A DNA stretch of 22,104 nucleotides, taken from positions 1-22,104 of IMG/VR virus record IMGVR_UViG_3300042565_002418, one strand, 5' to 3'. Of the stretch, positions 15,728-22,104 are shown in pieces. How positions within the stretch are numbered: the stretch's first letter is position 1; each line of letters starts with the position of its first letter. The notes below the pieces were generated by a model. That model saw nothing but the letters and a program-made list of their open reading frames with translations, was not told the DNA's origin and did not search any database. Both the position numbers and the translations under genes were made by a program. The DNA comes from a virus.

Positions 15728-15783
15728 ACGGCGCCGACGATTCGCTGATCCTCCCCACAGGTACCCACCCATGCCCTAACCCA

Positions 15784-15819
15784 CTGCGCCCCGCCGGGGG
15801 CCGAAAACCGGTGCGTTCC
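15784..15819 (+). repeat. Leader repeat, copy A (CTGCGCCCCGCC…CCGGTGCGTT)
   Basis: A 36-base block matches copy B at 16242-16278 in 29 of the first 34 positions. It lies 20 bases before the SPFH-tail-like gene. The differences are one base plus a four-base block (AAAA against GTTC) between GGCCG and CCGG, where a hairpin loop would be. Confidence 0.6.
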
Positions 15820-15838
15820 ATTACCCCCATTTCATTCC

Positions 15839-16237
15839 GTGAACGACAAACCTCCTGCAGCTTTTTGGTTTTTCATTGCTTTTGGTGTCACAGCATTGGC
15901 CTTTGTTATTTGGCTCATTCCTCAACTCGGCATTTACTACGCCACCAGCAACGGCAAGGCAGCTTTGATGGAAGCTGAATCCACTAGGCAAGTCCGCGTC
16001 CTTGAATCCAGGGCCAAGAAGGACGCTGCCACTTATGAAGCAGACGCTGAGATTGAGCGAGCTAAAGGCGTTGCTCAGGCCAATAAGATCATCGGTGACA
16101 GCCTGAAGGACAACCCTCGCTATCTGCAGTATCTTTACATCACAGGATTGCAAGAGGGATCCGAGAAAGGCAATCGCACTATCTATGTCCCCACCGAAGG
16201 AGGAATGCCTGTTCCTACTTTGGACATTGAGCGCTGA
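15839..16237 (+). CDS. Membrane protein resembling the C-terminal tail of SPFH/prohibitin proteins
   Basis: This 132-residue protein has a GTG start, with no ATG near. Residues 9-33 form one hydrophobic helix (FWFFIAFGVTALAFVIWLIP). Residues 39-85 are a charged Ala/Glu helix (MEAESTRQVRVLESRAKKDA, YEADAEIERAKGVAQANKII). Residues 86-125 read DSLKDNPRYLQYLYITGLQE...TIYVPTEGGMPV. The last two segments closely follow the end of band-7/SPFH proteins (the 'EA.A.A..i…..l.enp.ylqyl.i..l…..iyvPt..g.P' pattern). The globular SPFH domain itself is missing. It should sit in the inner membrane and could oligomerise with, or poison, host SPFH/FtsH complexes. That is inference. Its base composition is less GC-rich than its neighbours. 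Confidence 0.65.
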   Translation: MNDKPPAAFWFFIAFGVTALAFVIWLIPQLGIYYATSNGKAALMEAESTRQVRVLESRAKKDAATYEADAEIERAKGVAQANKIIGDSLKDNPRYLQYLYITGLQEGSEKGNRTIYVPTEGGMPVPTLDIER

Positions 16238-16241
16238 TCTG

Positions 16242-16278
16242 CTGCGCCCCGCCAGGGGCCGGTTCCCGGTGCGTTTCC
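16242..16278 (+). repeat. Leader repeat, copy B
   Basis: Partner of the block at 15784-15819, placed 14 bases before the next gene start. The position of both copies just upstream of short genes suggests a shared expression signal or an RNA hairpin with a variable loop. Confidence 0.6.
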
Positions 16279-16292
16279 CCATCCCCATCCCC

Positions 16293-16667: not shown

Positions 16668-16885
16668 TGCCCCACACCGGAAATCTGGATCATGAACCTG
16701 CTCCTGTGGTGTCTCTGGCCGTTTATCGGGCACGGAAACGCCGGGCGGCCCGTGCTGCCGCAAAGGATGCCCGTCGCGGAGCCATGATCGGCCTGCTGCT
16801 CCTGGCGGCTGGGCTCATGGACGGTTACATCCTCCACCGCGAGCAGCGCCTGCTCGATGCGGAGCGTGCGCACCAACTGCCCTAA
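16667..16885 (+). CDS. Small single-pass membrane protein (72 aa)
   Basis: The start is coupled to the previous stop. Residues about 20-38 are very basic (YRARKRRAARAAAKDARRGA). They are followed by a hydrophobic helix at 39-56 (AMIGLLLLAAGLMDGYIL) and a charged C-terminal tail (HREQRLLDAERAHQL). The positive-inside rule predicts the N-terminus in the cytoplasm. It resembles small phage inner-membrane proteins of unknown role, and a lysis accessory is possible. It overlaps the next gene by about 29 bases. Confidence 0.55.
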   Translation: MPHTGNLDHEPAPVVSLAVYRARKRRAARAAAKDARRGAMIGLLLLAAGLMDGYILHREQRLLDAERAHQLP

Positions 16886-17736: not shown

Positions 17737-17800
17737 CGTTGGCAATCTTCGGGACCGTCGCCCTAGCCGGGGCAGTGGGAGAGGGGGGGGTGGGTCATGC

Positions 17801-18403
17801 TCACACCCTCGCCCACGTCACCCGCTCAGGCTGCCCCTGATACTTCCCAGCCCGATCGGCGTAGGTCGTATCGCAGGGGTCGCCCTCCAGGAATAGAAGC
17901 TGGCAGATGCCCTCCTCCGCGCAGATGCGGCAGTCGGCGCCGGAGGAATTGCTGAACTCCAGCGTGAGGTGCCCCTCCCAGCTGGCCTCCGCCGGGGTGG
18001 TGTTGACGATGATACCCAGCCGGGCGTAGGTGCTCTTGCCTAGGCAGATCACGGTGATATTTGGCGGCACCCGTAGCCGCTCCAGCGCCACCCCCAGGCC
18101 GTAGGTGTGGGCTGGGAGGATGAAGTAGCGGCCATCTTCGTCCTCGTGCAGCGTGGCGGGCTCCAGGTTGGCCGGGTTAAACCGCTTCGGGTTCATCACC
18201 GTGCCAGGGATGTGGCGGAAGATCAGGAACTCCTTGGCAGACAGGCGCAGGTCGTAGCCGTAGCTGCTGGTGCCGTAGGACAGTACCAGACGAGAGGTGT
18301 GACTGACGTGGGGATCTTTAACCTCCCGCACCAGCTCCGGCACGTACGGGGTGATCATCCCCTCGGCGGCGCGCTCTCGTATCCAGCGGTCGTTTTTTAG
18401 CAT
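17801..18403 (-). CDS. dcd: dCTP deaminase
   Basis: The chosen start is ATG 18403 (MLKNDRWIRERAAEGMITPY), which matches the usual Dcd N-terminus and gives 200 residues. A longer frame from 18466 would only add an out-of-family leader. Hallmarks are SSYGYDLRLSAKEFLIF at 46-62, GKSTYARLGIIV at 122-133, SWEGHLTLEFSN with the catalytic Glu149 at 141-152, and AGKYQGQ at 185-191. Dcd turns dCTP into dUTP and feeds thymidylate synthesis; some relatives are bifunctional and release dUMP. The start is coupled (TGATG) to a 24-residue membrane ORF. A phage-borne copy would raise dTTP supply or serve modified-base synthesis. It is slightly longer than typical (about 170-195). Confidence 0.9.
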   Translation of the reverse strand: MLKNDRWIRERAAEGMITPYVPELVREVKDPHVSHTSRLVLSYGTSSYGYDLRLSAKEFLIFRHIPGTVMNPKRFNPANLEPATLHEDEDGRYFILPAHTYGLGVALERLRVPPNITVICLGKSTYARLGIIVNTTPAEASWEGHLTLEFSNSSGADCRICAEEGICQLLFLEGDPCDTTYADRAGKYQGQPERVTWARV

Positions 18404-18477
18404 CAGCGGGTAGCTATGTAGGTGAGACAGATAATGGCAACAATCCATATCGCTGCCGTTGGCCATCCTTTTTTCAT
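18403..18477 (-). CDS. 24-residue membrane micro-protein between two coupled genes
   Basis: The ATG overlaps the stop of the 108-residue gene (ATGA) and the stop overlaps the dcd start (TGATG), so both junctions are translationally coupled. The peptide begins with a basic MKKGWP and continues as a hydrophobic helix (AAIWIVAIICLTYIA) ending in Arg. That is a complete single-pass membrane peptide. The Lys codons and GGA at its start (AAAAAAGGA) could also act in ribosome loading. The exact fit of both ends argues that it is translated, if only to bring ribosomes to dcd. Automated annotation would miss it. Confidence 0.55.
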   Translation of the reverse strand: MKKGWPTAAIWIVAIICLTYIATR

Positions 18478-18800
18478 GGCTCTTTCGTGGTGGTGGTGGT
18501 TTTGTTTGCTGGGGGGCGCATTCCGACTATGCTGCCGTGAAGACTTTGGGCACGCTGTAGCTGCAACCTGGCTTGGTTTAATTGCCTGTGTGCGCGTGCC
18601 ATCAGCTCATTGTGAGCCTCTTCCCAGGTATTGAACACCTGGCCGGTTTTTTTAATCCTATCTTGCCTAGTTTTTCCACGCCAGTCTGGTATATTTAAGG
18701 TAGCAAAAGCTGGGGTTTCACTTACTAGCTCGCATCTTAAAATCTTTGGCTCCAGAGTAAATTTCTCTGCTTTTACAACATACCTGTAAACCGTTGTCAT
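18474..18800 (-). CDS. Hypothetical protein (108 aa)
   Basis: The ATG overlaps the upstream stop (ATGA) and has a GGAGGA ribosome site inside the upstream gene's tail. The protein begins MTTVYRYVVKAEKFTLEPKI and has a helical middle (about 58-90, EEAHNELMARAHRQLNQARL). It ends in PPANKTTTTTKEP, which mirrors the end of the neighbouring protein. Its DNA is more AT-rich than the rest of the operon. No function recognised. Confidence 0.6.
   Translation of the reverse strand: MTTVYRYVVKAEKFTLEPKILRCELVSETPAFATLNIPDWRGKTRQDRIKKTGQVFNTWEEAHNELMARAHRQLNQARLQLQRAQSLHGSIVGMRPPANKTTTTTKEP
18486..18515 (-). repeat. Junction cassette (poly-Thr type), copy 1
   Basis: A 30-base block encodes PPA(N)(K)TTTTT and matches the copy at 18812-18841 at all but two positions, in the same reading frame and at the same distance from the gene end. 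Confidence 0.7.
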
Positions 18801-19231
18801 GGCCGATCCTCCGTGGTGGTGGTGGTTTCGTCTGCTGGGGGATGCTCCCCCTGGCGGCGCTGCAGCTCATCCGCCCAGCGCCATGGGTCACGGCCGGCGG
18901 CGACACCGGCATCAAATACAGCGCAGATCATGGAATAGATACTGATTTGGTCTGTAATGATTAGGTCTAGATCAATGCCTCGCCGCTCGCATTGATCGCA
19001 GAACCAAGGCTCAAATGCGGTAAAATCACGCCAGCAATCATCCGCCGGATCACCCTTCCCCCATGGCATCACCGGCCACGGGTGCCAATCGGGCCAGGCA
19101 TGATCCCAGCCCCACTGGCCGGGGCGGAGCACTGTGCAGGGTTGGCGGCCTTGATGAAAAACACCGCTTTCACTGCTGTTCGTCCACCAGAGGCGACCAA
19201 TCCGGCCGCCGTCGCATCGGATCTCGATCAT
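18797..19231 (-). CDS. Trp-rich hypothetical protein (144 aa)
   Basis: The ATG overlaps the preceding stop (ATGA), with a GGGGGAG ribosome site in the upstream coding tail. It contains 12 Trp in 144 residues, many in GQWGWDHAWPDWHPWPVMPW (38-57), and a CDQC pair at 78-81. A helical part follows at about 100-128. The C-terminus PPADETTTTTEDRP is the poly-Thr junction cassette, which also carries the ribosome site of the next gene. Family not recognised; Trp-rich segments of this kind are frequent in small phage proteins. Confidence 0.6.
   Translation of the reverse strand: MIEIRCDGGRIGRLWWTNSSESGVFHQGRQPCTVLRPGQWGWDHAWPDWHPWPVMPWGKGDPADDCWRDFTAFEPWFCDQCERRGIDLDLIITDQISIYSMICAVFDAGVAAGRDPWRWADELQRRQGEHPPADETTTTTEDRP
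18812..18841 (-). repeat. Junction cassette (poly-Thr type), copy 2
   Basis: Partner of 18486-18515. Downstream of this copy the gene tail spells CGGAGGA about 6 bases before the next ATG, so the cassette delivers a ribosome site. Confidence 0.7.
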
Positions 19232-19431
19232 GACTGCTCCCCCTGGCGGGTGCCTTCCAGTTCGGTGGCGATCTGATGCAACTTGGCGGAATCCTGCACG
19301 AATTGCATGTGTACCGCAGCAGCCCGCAAGGCGGCGACGAGATCCATCTCGTCATGGGGCGAACGGTCAGGGCGGCCAACACGATGCGCTGCATCCAACA
19401 CCGCCTGTGCAGCGGAGCTCAGTTCAGCCAT
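19228..19431 (-). CDS. Small helical hypothetical protein (67 aa)
   Basis: The start is ATG 19431 (MAELSSAAQAVLDAAHRVGR), with an AGGAGGAG ribosome site 6-7 bases upstream. The frame extends further upstream but without such a site. The protein is nearly all helix and Ala-rich. It ends TRQGEQS, and its stop overlaps the next ATG. This resembles short phage proteins of the 'aa.avldAa' kind with unknown role. Confidence 0.6.
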   Translation of the reverse strand: MAELSSAAQAVLDAAHRVGRPDRSPHDEMDLVAALRAAAVHMQFVQDSAKLHQIATELEGTRQGEQS

Positions 19432-19642
19432 TGGATTGCTCCTCCTGACGGCTCCGCTGCGCACGGTCGGCGGCGATGGCGGCGCGGGCGTAGGTGATCA
19501 GTTCTTCGGGCCCGACCAACATCACGTCAGGCTCGCCAGGGGCAATGCTGTCGTATTCAAGTACATCCGCTGCTATCAGTAGCAACTGCTCATCACTCAA
19601 CTCCCCGGCAGCGGGGGGTTCTGGTGTCTGGGGGGTGTTCAT
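19424..19642 (-). CDS. Small acidic hypothetical protein (72 aa)
   Basis: I take ATG 19642 (MNTPQTPEPPAAGELSDEQL) as the start. A GTG at 19684 with a GAGGAGG site and a GTGA overlap with the upstream stop is an equally credible start and would add 14 residues. A Pro-rich N-terminus leads to a helical acidic domain (SDEQLLLIAADVLEYD…PEELITYARAAIAADR). It ends RQEEQSNG, which spells the ribosome site for the next gene. Function unknown. Confidence 0.55.
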   Translation of the reverse strand: MNTPQTPEPPAAGELSDEQLLLIAADVLEYDSIAPGEPDVMLVGPEELITYARAAIAADRAQRSRQEEQSNG

Positions 19643-19680
19643 TGGCGTGGTGGGGATGGGGGCGGTATCGGGAGGAGTGA

Positions 19681-20046
19681 TCACTCCGCCACCTCCTCGC
19701 CTTGGGGCGGCTTGTGATGTCGCAGCGCTGCACACGCAGCCCATGGACTCGGGAAACTGTGCTCCGCGAGGTAGTCGGCGGTGCGCTCCGATGGGCTGGG
19801 CTCGATGCTCCATTCGCCCAAAATTGACATCCGCTCCGAACTGCTGCGGACAGCCCAGGCGTCGGGCTCGGCGCGGGTGCGCTCAATCGTGACGCCGCTG
19901 GCGGGGTGGTAGTAACGAGTGGCGACCAGTTCTGCCGGCGCTTGGCGGATGACTGCCGCAGCCTGCAGCGCATCGGCGCACAGTAGCCGGTGAGTTCGAG
20001 GATTCTCGAGGCGCCAGGCTAGGGCTTCGTGCGGGGATTGGCTCAC
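19681..20046 (-). CDS. Hypothetical protein (121 aa)
   Basis: The start is GTG 20046 (MSQSPHEALAWRLENPRTHR), overlapping the upstream stop (GTGA), with a GAGGAGGT site about 6 bases before it. A longer frame to 20142 would run back through the upstream gene. It is mixed alpha/beta, with one Trp-rich stretch near residue 110 (SFPSPWAACAALRHH). It ends KPPQGEEVAE, sharing PPQGEEV with the end of the upstream protein. No family recognised. Confidence 0.6.
   Translation of the reverse strand: MSQSPHEALAWRLENPRTHRLLCADALQAAAVIRQAPAELVATRYYHPASGVTIERTRAEPDAWAVRSSSERMSILGEWSIEPSPSERTADYLAEHSFPSPWAACAALRHHKPPQGEEVAE
19684..19716 (-). repeat. Junction cassette (PPQGEEV type), copy 1
   Basis: A core of 23 bases encodes PPQGEEV and differs at one position from the copy at 20046-20078. 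The coding GAGGAGGT is the Shine-Dalgarno of the following GTG start. Confidence 0.65.
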
Positions 20047-21095
20047 GACTGCACCTCCTCGCCCTGGGGCGGCTGGGGGACTGGGATGGCCCAGTGGGGG
20101 AGGCAGAAATCTCCATAGGGACCTCCATCGGCAAGTTGCCACTCAGGGATTCCAGCCTGGTTAAACCACCAGCACCGCCCCTCCCAATCACACCACCCCT
20201 CCCGCTCCCACGGGCTCTCGCTGACCGCCACCGGCACAGCAGCCGGCGTGGGGTGGCGGAGGAGGAGGGCGGCGCGGGTGAGCCTCGGAATGACTTGATC
20301 GGATGTCAGGCGGTACAAGTCGTCATAGTTGTCGCCCAGCTTTTCGATCCATTGCGCCAGCTCCTCCCGCTCCCCATCGCTGGCGGGGGTCGGCGCGGGG
20401 GGCTGGTCAACGGCGAGGGACTCGCGCAGCGAGCGAAAATTGCTGAGGTTCTGCTCCTTGCGTTCCAGCTCGGCAAACGCCGAACGGACCTCTTCTGGGA
20501 TCTCTGGCACCTCCGCTGGTGCTGGGGTCTGCTTCCACGCGGCACGAGCACGGCGCAGCAGCGGCGCACCCATGCGCACATCCACCCCCTCGGCATCGCA
20601 CAGCTCCTGCAGTCCGCCGTAGTCGCCATCGGGGCCGGGGAAATCGATCCCGGCGATGGGTGGGCGAAGGTGGGGCAGGATCCGCTCACGGATCCGGTCG
20701 AGCAGGTTTTCGAGGGTGTCGCAGCCGTACAAGGGTGCCCACCACTCCAGCTGGTCGAGTAGCTGGGCGCCATCTTCGTGGCCAGTGCCCGGCTCATAGG
20801 CTCCCTCTGGACTCAGCAGCGCATCGATGTCGAGCGCTGGCGCCGGGGGCTGGGCAGCCAGCTCTCCTACGGCGGTGATGTCCACCGCTGGACCGATGCT
20901 CACCTGCGGGGTGCCGTCGGGGTGTAGGGCCAGCTTCGTGGTCAGGGGATGGGCGGCCAGGGCGGCGCGGGCGGCGTGCGCTTCATTCCGGGCGCGGCCG
21001 CCAGCAGCAGTCCACCCGGCCTGGGTGAGCGACGTTGCCACCAGCTCCAGTTCTCGCGCTGCACGCTCCAGCGCGGTACGGATCGGGTCAGTCAT
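20043..21095 (-). CDS. Large multi-segment hypothetical protein (350 aa)
   Basis: The ATG 21095 has an AGGAGGT ribosome site within the upstream gene and overlaps it by eight bases. Residues 1-50 form an Ala-rich helical unit (IRTALERAARELELVATSLT). Residues 85-185 are acidic with a Trp pair (LDQLEWWAPLYG) and contain PDGDYGGLQELCDAEGVDVR. A linker rich in Pro/Ala/Glu follows. Residues about 292-330 are Trp-rich (WEREGWCDWEGRCWWFNQAG). It ends PQPPQGEEVQS. Modular, linker-joined layouts like this are common in phage early orphan proteins; no catalytic motif is visible. Confidence 0.6.
   Translation of the reverse strand: MTDPIRTALERAARELELVATSLTQAGWTAAGGRARNEAHAARAALAAHPLTTKLALHPDGTPQVSIGPAVDITAVGELAAQPPAPALDIDALLSPEGAYEPGTGHEDGAQLLDQLEWWAPLYGCDTLENLLDRIRERILPHLRPPIAGIDFPGPDGDYGGLQELCDAEGVDVRMGAPLLRRARAAWKQTPAPAEVPEIPEEVRSAFAELERKEQNLSNFRSLRESLAVDQPPAPTPASDGEREELAQWIEKLGDNYDDLYRLTSDQVIPRLTRAALLLRHPTPAAVPVAVSESPWEREGWCDWEGRCWWFNQAGIPEWQLADGGPYGDFCLPHWAIPVPQPPQGEEVQS
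20046..20078 (-). repeat. Junction cassette (PPQGEEV type), copy 2
   Basis: Partner of 19684-19716, placed at the end of the 350-residue gene and supplying the ribosome site of the next gene. Confidence 0.65.
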
Positions 21096-21459
21096 TGGCC
21101 TGGACCTCCTGGTGGCGGTTGGGGTTCATGGCGGCGAGAGTTTCGTGGGCGTACCGCCACACAAGGAACGCAAAGGGCCGCAGGATGGAGCTTTGACCGT
21201 CCGGCAGCAGGCATTCGGGCACCTCCCTCGGCAACTCCGGCCACTCCATCGGCGCAGGCGCCCCCGTCAGGATCCGATTGGCCAGTAGTTGGCGGGCGAG
21301 ACTCTCAGCGCCGTCAGCGCTCAGCAGCGACTTGGGCCCGATGTAACCGCGAAGCCAGCTGGTGAGGTAGGCCAGTCGTTGTTCATCGGGCTGCGGAGTC
21401 GGCGCCGCGGCAGCCTCCAAAGCGGCGACGCGACGTTCGAGGTCTTCCCACTGGTCCAT
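21088..21459 (-). CDS. Hypothetical protein with N-terminal coiled coil (123 aa)
   Basis: The start is ATG 21459 (MDQWEDLERRVAALEAAAAP). A longer frame to 21495 lacks a ribosome site. After a short coiled coil (residues 3-20) and a Pro/Gln linker come helices around YLTSWLRGYIG and ESLARQLLANRILTG. A Pro/Trp-rich patch (APMEWPELPREVPE) and an aromatic helix (RPFAFLVWRYAHETLAAM) follow. The C-terminus HQEVQAND carries the ribosome site of the 350-residue gene. It is the first gene after a 54-base gap, where a new promoter is possible. Function unknown. Confidence 0.6.
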   Translation of the reverse strand: MDQWEDLERRVAALEAAAAPTPQPDEQRLAYLTSWLRGYIGPKSLLSADGAESLARQLLANRILTGAPAPMEWPELPREVPECLLPDGQSSILRPFAFLVWRYAHETLAAMNPNRHQEVQAND

Positions 21460-21513
21460 GGGTCCTATTGCGGTGTGGCTCTGCCAGCATACCACCCCCG
21501 CAACAGAAACGCA
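21460..21513 (-). promoter_or_regulatory. Only real gap in the minus operon; possible extended -10 promoter
   Basis: Read on the minus strand, the gap contains TGGTATGCT, an extended -10-like TGnTATnnT, about 30 bases before the ATG at 21459. No good -35 lies at the right spacing, so this is weak evidence. Confidence 0.25.
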
Positions 21514-22104
21514 CTACTCCGCCCAGGCCCAGTGGTAGCCGGCGGCGGTTCCGCCGGTGCGGATGGCGGTTGCCATCGTCTGCCGGGTGATGAAGTGCCG
21601 GCGGGCGGCCTCCGTTGCCGAGGGGTAGACCTTGAGGGTGTCCAGGTTACGGACCCGTCGGCAGTCGGATAGCTTCCTGGGGTGAGCGGCGCTGATCTTC
21701 TCCGCCAGTGCGTTGTTCTCCAGCAGCATGAGCAGCACGGGCGCCGGGGTGCGGCCGAACAGCTCGGGCCGGCGCTTGGCGAACTGCACCAGGTCGCGCC
21801 TGCGCACTGTCCAGGAGGACCCGTCAAGCACCGCAGGCAGCTGGTAGCGAGCCACCCAGCGCCTGATGGTCTCCTCATGCACGCCCAAGATTCCGGCGAT
21901 AGCGCTCGTTCGCATCCACCTGCCGACCGGAATCAGCGACAGGCCCATGGCATGTGCCCGGTCTGTCAGCGCCCTACGGCTTCGCTCTGGATAGCCGTTC
22001 TTCCGCGCCCAGCGGTTGAAGTACTCCGCCAGGTTGCAAATCGGCACATCCCCCGCCAACTGATCCAGCCGGTCAACCTCCGCCGGCCCCCACGAGTTCG
22101 CCAT
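21514..22104 (-). CDS. Helix-turn-helix DNA-binding protein with NUMOD1-like C-terminus
   Basis: This 196-residue protein begins with an ATG at the very edge of the window, so an upstream extension cannot be excluded. Residues 5-60 follow a SANT-like 'W...E…L..LAgD.P…lAeyfN…..gyp.RS..AL..Ra…GLS' pattern. Residues 65-108 form a MerR/excisionase-like helix-turn-helix (TSAIAGILGVHEETIRRWVA, then SWTVRRRDLVQFAK). Residues 157-194 (LKVYPSATEAARRHFITRQT…GGTAAGYHWAW) match the NUMOD1 module of homing endonucleases. No HNH or GIY-YIG core is present, so it is probably a regulator or a nuclease remnant rather than an active endonuclease. It would head the minus operon. Confidence 0.7.
   Translation of the reverse strand: MANSWGPAEVDRLDQLAGDVPICNLAEYFNRWARKNGYPERSRRALTDRAHAMGLSLIPVGRWMRTSAIAGILGVHEETIRRWVARYQLPAVLDGSSWTVRRRDLVQFAKRRPELFGRTPAPVLLMLLENNALAEKISAAHPRKLSDCRRVRNLDTLKVYPSATEAARRHFITRQTMATAIRTGGTAAGYHWAWAE

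Follow-up and report, generated by a model that had tools for sequence, protein, structure and literature searches.

The window analysed here is a linear IMG/VR virus record of 22,104 bases, taken at its full length. It carries a minus-strand early operon in which a helix-turn-helix gene (21514-22104) is followed by seven small genes without an assigned function and then by a dCTP deaminase gene (17801-18403). Adjacent genes whose bodies are unrelated carry matching short tails, and we propose that these tails are probably gene joints at which small early genes are gained, lost and exchanged. The best matches of the dCTP deaminase are cyanophages and the closest major head protein is that of cyanophage PSS2, so the host is likely, judging from these protein similarities, to be a cyanobacterium. 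At the DNA level the phage collection contained no near match to the window. No Rfam families were found in the operon region. The features are given below from upstream to downstream; L numbers label related contigs, and overlaps are in nucleotides (nt).

21514..22104, minus strand: g9, helix-turn-helix protein (HTH_17; Pfam PF12728, 3e-8), the upstream gene on the same strand
21088..21459, minus strand: g8, 123 amino acids, with C-terminal module ..LAAMNP.RHQEVQAND, also present in L002 (9276-9791) and L003 (5219-5686)
21088..21117, minus strand: g8/g7 junction CGCCACCAGGAGGTCCAGGCCAATGACTGA, ribosome site and 8-nt overlap (from the sequence)
20043..21095, minus strand: g7, mosaic protein of 350 amino acids with terminal module EREGWCD.EGRCWW..LPHWAIP (sequence comparison)
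20043..20075, minus strand: P-joint copy 1, peptide PPQGEEVQS, GGAGG 7 nt before the g6 GTG (from the sequence)
19681..20046, minus strand: g6, 121 amino acids, unrelated to g7 (body comparison)
19681..19713, minus strand: P-joint copy 2, peptide PPQGEEVAE, GGAGG 7 nt before the GTG at 19684 (from the sequence)
19424..19684, minus strand: g5, 86 amino acids from GTG 19684, with an ATG further in at about 19642
19424..19453, minus strand: Q-joint (SRQEEQSNG), ribosome site for g4, 8-nt overlap (pattern scan)
19228..19431, minus strand: g4, 67 amino acids; family relatives in L018 and L051 end IATELEQ / IAAELEG
19228..19251, minus strand: Q-joint (TRQGEQS), core CGCCAGGGGGAGCA at 19235-19248, 4-nt overlap with g3 (pattern scan)
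18797..19231, minus strand: g3, 144 amino acids; its L018 homologue keeps the body and has a different tail and next gene
18843..18856, minus strand: buried Q-joint core inside g3, upstream of the g3 T-joint (pattern scan)
18797..18841, minus strand: T-joint copy 1 (PPADETTTTTEDRP), (ACC)n plus GGAGGATCGGCC-ATGA of g2 (pattern scan, relatives)
18474..18800, minus strand: g2, 108 amino acids; homologues in L002 and L003 (T-joint) and in L041 and L043 (P-like tails)
18474..18515, minus strand: T-joint copy 2 (PPANKTTTTTKEP), 4-nt overlap with a 24-amino-acid open reading frame (pattern scan)
18403..18477, minus strand: open reading frame of 24 amino acids, MKKGWPTAAIWIVAIICLTYIATR, with a hydrophobic stretch, lying between g2 and the dCTP deaminase gene and overlapping both (TGATG with the deaminase; from the sequence)
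17801..18403, minus strand: dCTP deaminase, start at 18403, the stable anchor at the end of the array (phrog_1663 4e-52, PF22769 5e-22)

A preliminary description of this DNA had reported PPQGEEV ends on two proteins, PPA(D/N)(E/K)TTTTT ends on two others and (R/H)Q.E.Q. variants on more, and each of these is present: g7 and g6 end in PPQGEEVQS and PPQGEEVAE (P-joints), g3 and g2 in PPADETTTTTEDRP and PPANKTTTTTKEP (T-joints), and g4, g5 and g8 in TRQGEQS, RQEEQSNG and HQEVQAND. The P-joint sequence CCGCCCCARGGCGAGGAGGTG stands at the 3' ends of both g7 and g6, with 0 expected by chance, and its core CCGCCCCARGGCGRGGAGGTG has two perfect matches in the window (19690-19710 and 20052-20072) and 0 in 100 shuffles. 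The T-joint consists of (ACC)n followed by ACG, and the pattern (ACC)4ACG occurs twice in the window against 0.05 expected. The Q-joint is weaker than these, because its core CGCCAGGGGGAGCA, allowing up to two mismatches, is found four times against 0.62 expected; one of the four (16794-16807) lies outside the junctions of this operon. That the DNA outside the tails is unrelated was equally borne out, since the bodies of tail-sharing genes lack homology (Smith-Waterman z of -0.2 for both window pairs). Some tails have a stacked appearance, suggesting that one joint was appended after an earlier one: g3 has RRQGEH before its T-joint, g4 has IATELEG before TRQGEQS and, among relatives, L043 has AEVQP before WGR and L076 has two P-joints in one protein. 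The Q-joint core buried in g3 is possibly the scar of an earlier junction.

The tails hold or adjoin the ribosome site of the next gene, as had been described, and stops and next starts in the operon share 4 nt (ATGA/GTGA) or 8 nt. The window, L003 and L076 all keep a distance of 7 nt from the GGAGG of the P-joint to the following start. The last residues of the peptide differ between copies (QS, AE, QP, A), and the overlap is GTGA in some and TGATG in others; diverged P-joints deviate slightly (L002-g7, GGGGAAGGAGATG; L099-B, GGAGGCGCAGTG, 6-7 nt by start choice). A constant spacing under a varying peptide fits the earlier suggestion of a translation coupler; the joints may also raise translation.

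The T-joint is a leader element. Of 127 (ACC/CCA/CAC)3 runs, 33 lie in the 25 nt before a gene start; since such stretches make up about 2% of the sequence, our arithmetic predicts 2-3. The coding frame of the upstream gene does not include 13 of these 33 runs. T-type junctions are predicted to have weaker RNA structure at the start (-5.05 vs -11.55 kcal/mol), and these junctions may therefore work by keeping the start open. Long (ACC)n runs stand directly before starts in L009 (about 535-590, 14 Thr codons) and L099 (3230-3570, with T7 tails on two adjacent genes); they are probably length-variable by slippage. The leader also bears on the idea that the tail peptide is itself functional, for example as a shared degradation or interaction tag. 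One phage does carry the same peptide on several proteins. However, the terminal residues vary while the Shine-Dalgarno (SD) spacing stays near 7 nt, the T-joint is a noncoding leader as well, and one protein family bears many different tails, which makes such a tag scarcely conceivable.

Could the SD sequence alone produce the tails? The consensus of 256 ATGA/GTGA junctions is GGAGG-N7-start, with the GGAGG-to-start spacing peaking at 7 nt (58/141), and it dictates the last residues, so that an SD read in fixed frame would make unrelated proteins converge on E-V-Q-P, R-Q-G-E-Q or E-L-E-G. By the sequences, this accounts for much of the weaker tail sharing (GEVQP, R/HQ.E.Q): it holds for the GEVQP-type tails and probably for most of the Q-joint. 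As the sole explanation it is very improbable, and for the P- and T-joints it is contradicted: neither P-P-Q-G nor (ACC)n is part of the SD, yet synonymous positions agree among the P-P-Q-G copies, (ACC)n also stands in frame-free leaders, and sharing survives removal of the last 18 nt. Third codon positions of P-P-Q-G are identical at 0.88, against about 0.37 predicted from codon usage in these contigs, and the P-joint copies therefore descend from one DNA.

Relatives were gathered via the dCTP deaminase (60 loci), g7, the P pattern and the g7 C-terminal module (55 loci), and tail sharing was counted in 62 related contigs. Adjacent genes with unrelated bodies reached a tail DNA score of at least 12 in 26 of 917 pairs, compared with 18 of 12399 other pairs on the same contig and 56 of 49872 pairs between contigs; sharing between neighbours is thus about 25 times commoner than between contigs. 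An internal control stretch, 60-120 nt before the stop, gave 0/917 adjacent pairs sharing DNA. With the last 18 nt (the SD part) removed and a score of at least 10, the counts were 9/917 for adjacent, 25/12399 for same-contig and 67/49604 for between-contig pairs, a smaller excess that nevertheless remains. Over 26 non-orthologous pairs the P-joint is 89% identical along 24 nt, while identity outside it is 36% in the adjoining upstream DNA, 27% farther up and 28% on the downstream side.

L003 has P-joints at the ends of four genes in a row, named A to D, of which A is related to g7; the bodies of A, B and C lack similarity by test, and D, absent from the gene calls used for that test, is unrelated by eye. 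Tandem duplication followed by rapid divergence of the bodies, with the tail as the sole recognisable remnant, is conceivable in principle, and ELEG-type paralogue pairs do exist (L018 genes 9/10, z of 5.7; L052, z of 4.5). Apart from a few such pairs elsewhere, however, tail-sharing proteins are not paralogues: bodies in the window and L003 show no similarity, and tail third positions are nearly unchanged although the bodies are unrelated. Moreover, L052 has homologues of C and D whose alignment breaks off at the tail and which are followed by different genes. Duplication is accordingly extremely improbable. In the relatives, these tails are found on further unrelated proteins, and proteins that bear them here also exist with different ones; homologues of g2, for example, have a T-joint in the window, L002 and L003 and a P-like tail in L041 and L043. 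Both outcomes that the preliminary description had named as refuting, full-length paralogy and absence of the tails from all relatives, were looked for and neither was found. Wider scans returned little. A 20-nt P pattern gave mostly chance matches in viral contigs and was real only in L003's contig and L076; in bacterial genomes the P-joint pattern gave six stray matches in unrelated bacteria and no cyanobacterial prophage. Scanning viral contigs yielded no g3 relatives, and scans with L003 genes MIDD and C matched only L003's own contig.

Close relatives display the exchanges directly. In L099 and L003, gene B and its P-joint match without a difference as far as GGAGG, beyond which the two contigs have different genes. 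The left flanks of L002 and L003 are about 99% identical, and this identity extends 18 nt into gene a, whose start has an 8-nt overlap with the stop before it; gene a has been replaced (below 40-60% identity, with partial similarity in the C-terminal module), and 100% identity is regained about 50 nt before its stop. A MIDLSKLPAWP-related gene stands at different junctions in the same two contigs, the homology stopping 19-34 nt before the stop codon and the tail differing with the new neighbour, and MKTFYV keeps its 30-nt T-joint leader though the upstream gene differs. Finally, MKAW in L002 sits between two T-joints, and the corresponding empty site in L003 has a single T-joint that is a hybrid: its left side is that of the left copy in L002, its right side that of the right copy.

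The C-terminal module LPHWALPVP occurs in 38 non-redundant genes, and the tail switches directly after ALPxP; the following genes belong to 28 families among 34, with an SD in 24/34. Since one module changes its tail before so many next-gene families, the tails are mainly ribosome sites and adaptors that are read through into the upstream protein. At equal protein identity, at least 6 amino acids of the C-terminus were unaligned in 29/38 cases when the next gene had changed and in 6/21 when it was the same; two further sets gave 14/28 vs 2/21 and 6/21 vs 1/48.

The modular shuffling proposed in the preliminary description thus finds replacement, relocation and filled and empty sites among relatives, with breakpoints inside the junction piece or at its edge; that the pieces are kept as homology sites is the part we infer. 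The standard alternative model (PMC3233612) is that crossovers are random and illegitimate, and that breakpoints appear clustered at joints because only recombinants with a closed frame and a well-spaced ribosome site survive, the joints being no homology sites. Consistent with such a passive filter, most mosaic joints between distant phages retain the SD core alone, and module breakpoints inside proteins exist. It leaves unexplained, however, the several copies of one 24-nt piece, alike even in their synonymous codons, that unrelated neighbours carry, the hybrid T-joint at the empty site and the excess of adjacent over distant sharing within one phage, and we regard it as unlikely.

Several points weigh against the joints as sites of exchange. 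Some breakpoints lie inside proteins at module edges, away from joints (g7, gene a). The virus of the window has no close relative showing a filled/empty pair, the decisive pairs being among its relatives. For distant pairs in which the downstream gene is homologous and the upstream gene different, upstream DNA agrees at 0.33 and 0.30 against a background of 0.28 (ungapped comparison, all distant pairs); hardly anything is kept on average, so that in the long term only the ribosome site is retained. The genes were called with a home-made program, on contigs that are fragments from metagenomes. Finally, identical runs in P-joints (about 20-29 nt) reach only the lower limit quoted for Red-beta, 23-27 bp (PMC3945230).

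We propose that a joint is a piece of 20-45 nt that contains the translation start signal for the following gene (P, Q) or lies before it (T); in frame, it supplies the final 6-15 residues of the upstream protein. Small early genes would be gained, lost and exchanged by crossovers in joints or at their edges. Such crossovers would therefore keep the frame closed, the SD near its usual distance and the stop/start overlap that couples translation. Where neighbouring genes use the same joint, each would be flanked by two copies, and the difference between a filled and an empty site would be one gene plus one joint. A RecT-like annealing protein in L002 and a Sak4-like one in L003 each adjoin SSB, and recombination of short and diverged sequences is known for single-strand annealing proteins (PMC3945230); the exchange would putatively arise when phage annealing recombinases help joint copies to base-pair. 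We speculate, tentatively and with more doubt than belief, that the early operons of these cyanophages are integrase-free cassette arrays (no search for an integrase was made, and the window is a fragment) in which a cargo gene travels as body plus joint, population-shared "house" joints (P, T and others) keep cargo interchangeable, and RecT/Sak4-type annealing proteins swap cargo by pairing the translation-coupling joints.

Other observations concern the neighbourhood of the joints. Modules of g7 are found apart elsewhere (YEPGTGHEDGAQL..LYGCDTL in L018 and L025, LPHWAIP in 55 loci), and shuffling therefore also occurs inside proteins. Just upstream of the small-gene array lie FGE-type proteins (L002 8258-9283, L003 4051-5226, L036 16634-19046) with repeated RLLRGGS..CRSA..R motifs, three of them in tandem in L036. 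The FGE-type fold is used by diversity-generating retroelements; such an element was suspected near the FGE-type protein, and no reverse transcriptase was found in four contigs. On the plus strand of the window, a 58-nt repeat, 74% identical (CTGCGCCCCGCC.GGGGCCG..CCGGTGCGTT; 15773-15830 and 16231-16288), adjoins small genes and may be a joint of the convergent operon.

Phage mosaicism has been explained either by targeted homology at gene boundaries or by random crossovers followed by selection (PMC3233612). The homologous-recombination model, cited in PMC3233612, rests on conserved boundary sequences where modules meet in lambdoid and other phages. By the features compared here, the joints are a variant of this idea. 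Boundary sequences are short conserved DNA bordering exchanged genes and proposed as recombination targets; here too a short sequence is common to junctions of nonhomologous modules, and exchange breakpoints coincide with it in related genomes, in a few pairs only. What sets the joints apart is their position within the 3' coding end of the gene before, their tie to the following ribosome site, which they contain or precede, and their recurrence on consecutive unrelated genes of a single genome. The nearest relatives in kind are the start-associated sequences (SAS, with extended form ESAS) of cluster K mycobacteriophages, repeats with an SD core directly upstream of unrelated gene starts (PMC3203893), whose authors raise the possibility that they are targets of homologous recombination (PMC3203893). 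An SD-containing repeat at unrelated gene starts is likewise found here, although the SAS consensus GGGATAGGAGCCC upstream of starts gave only 3-mismatch matches, fewer than chance. SAS are described as an upstream repeat, whereas the joints add a shared protein tail, several joint families and direct breakpoint evidence.

T4-type phages reportedly have cassettes of another sort, the PeSLs (Arbiol in 2010, Comeau in 2014). These are intergenic, an early promoter with a stem-loop (PMC4503421). Like PeSLs, the joints are repeated regulatory pieces between shuffled small genes. Unlike them they are translational, and a consensus scan of 17800-22104 found no sigma-70-like promoter. Integron gene cassettes form arrays of unrelated small genes with repeated sites between them, one site per gene. 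The operon shares this layout, but its repeat is coding and carries a ribosome site. A shared protein tail that doubles as ribosome site and crossover point was not found in the open-licence literature searched.

How phage gene boundaries become exchange points is the question on which the two models of mosaicism compete. The boundary piece described here is both ribosome site and protein tail, is repeated within genomes and can be traced in close relatives, and these features make the two models separable. The joints also suggest a natural rule by which an operon could take up further genes with its translation left intact.

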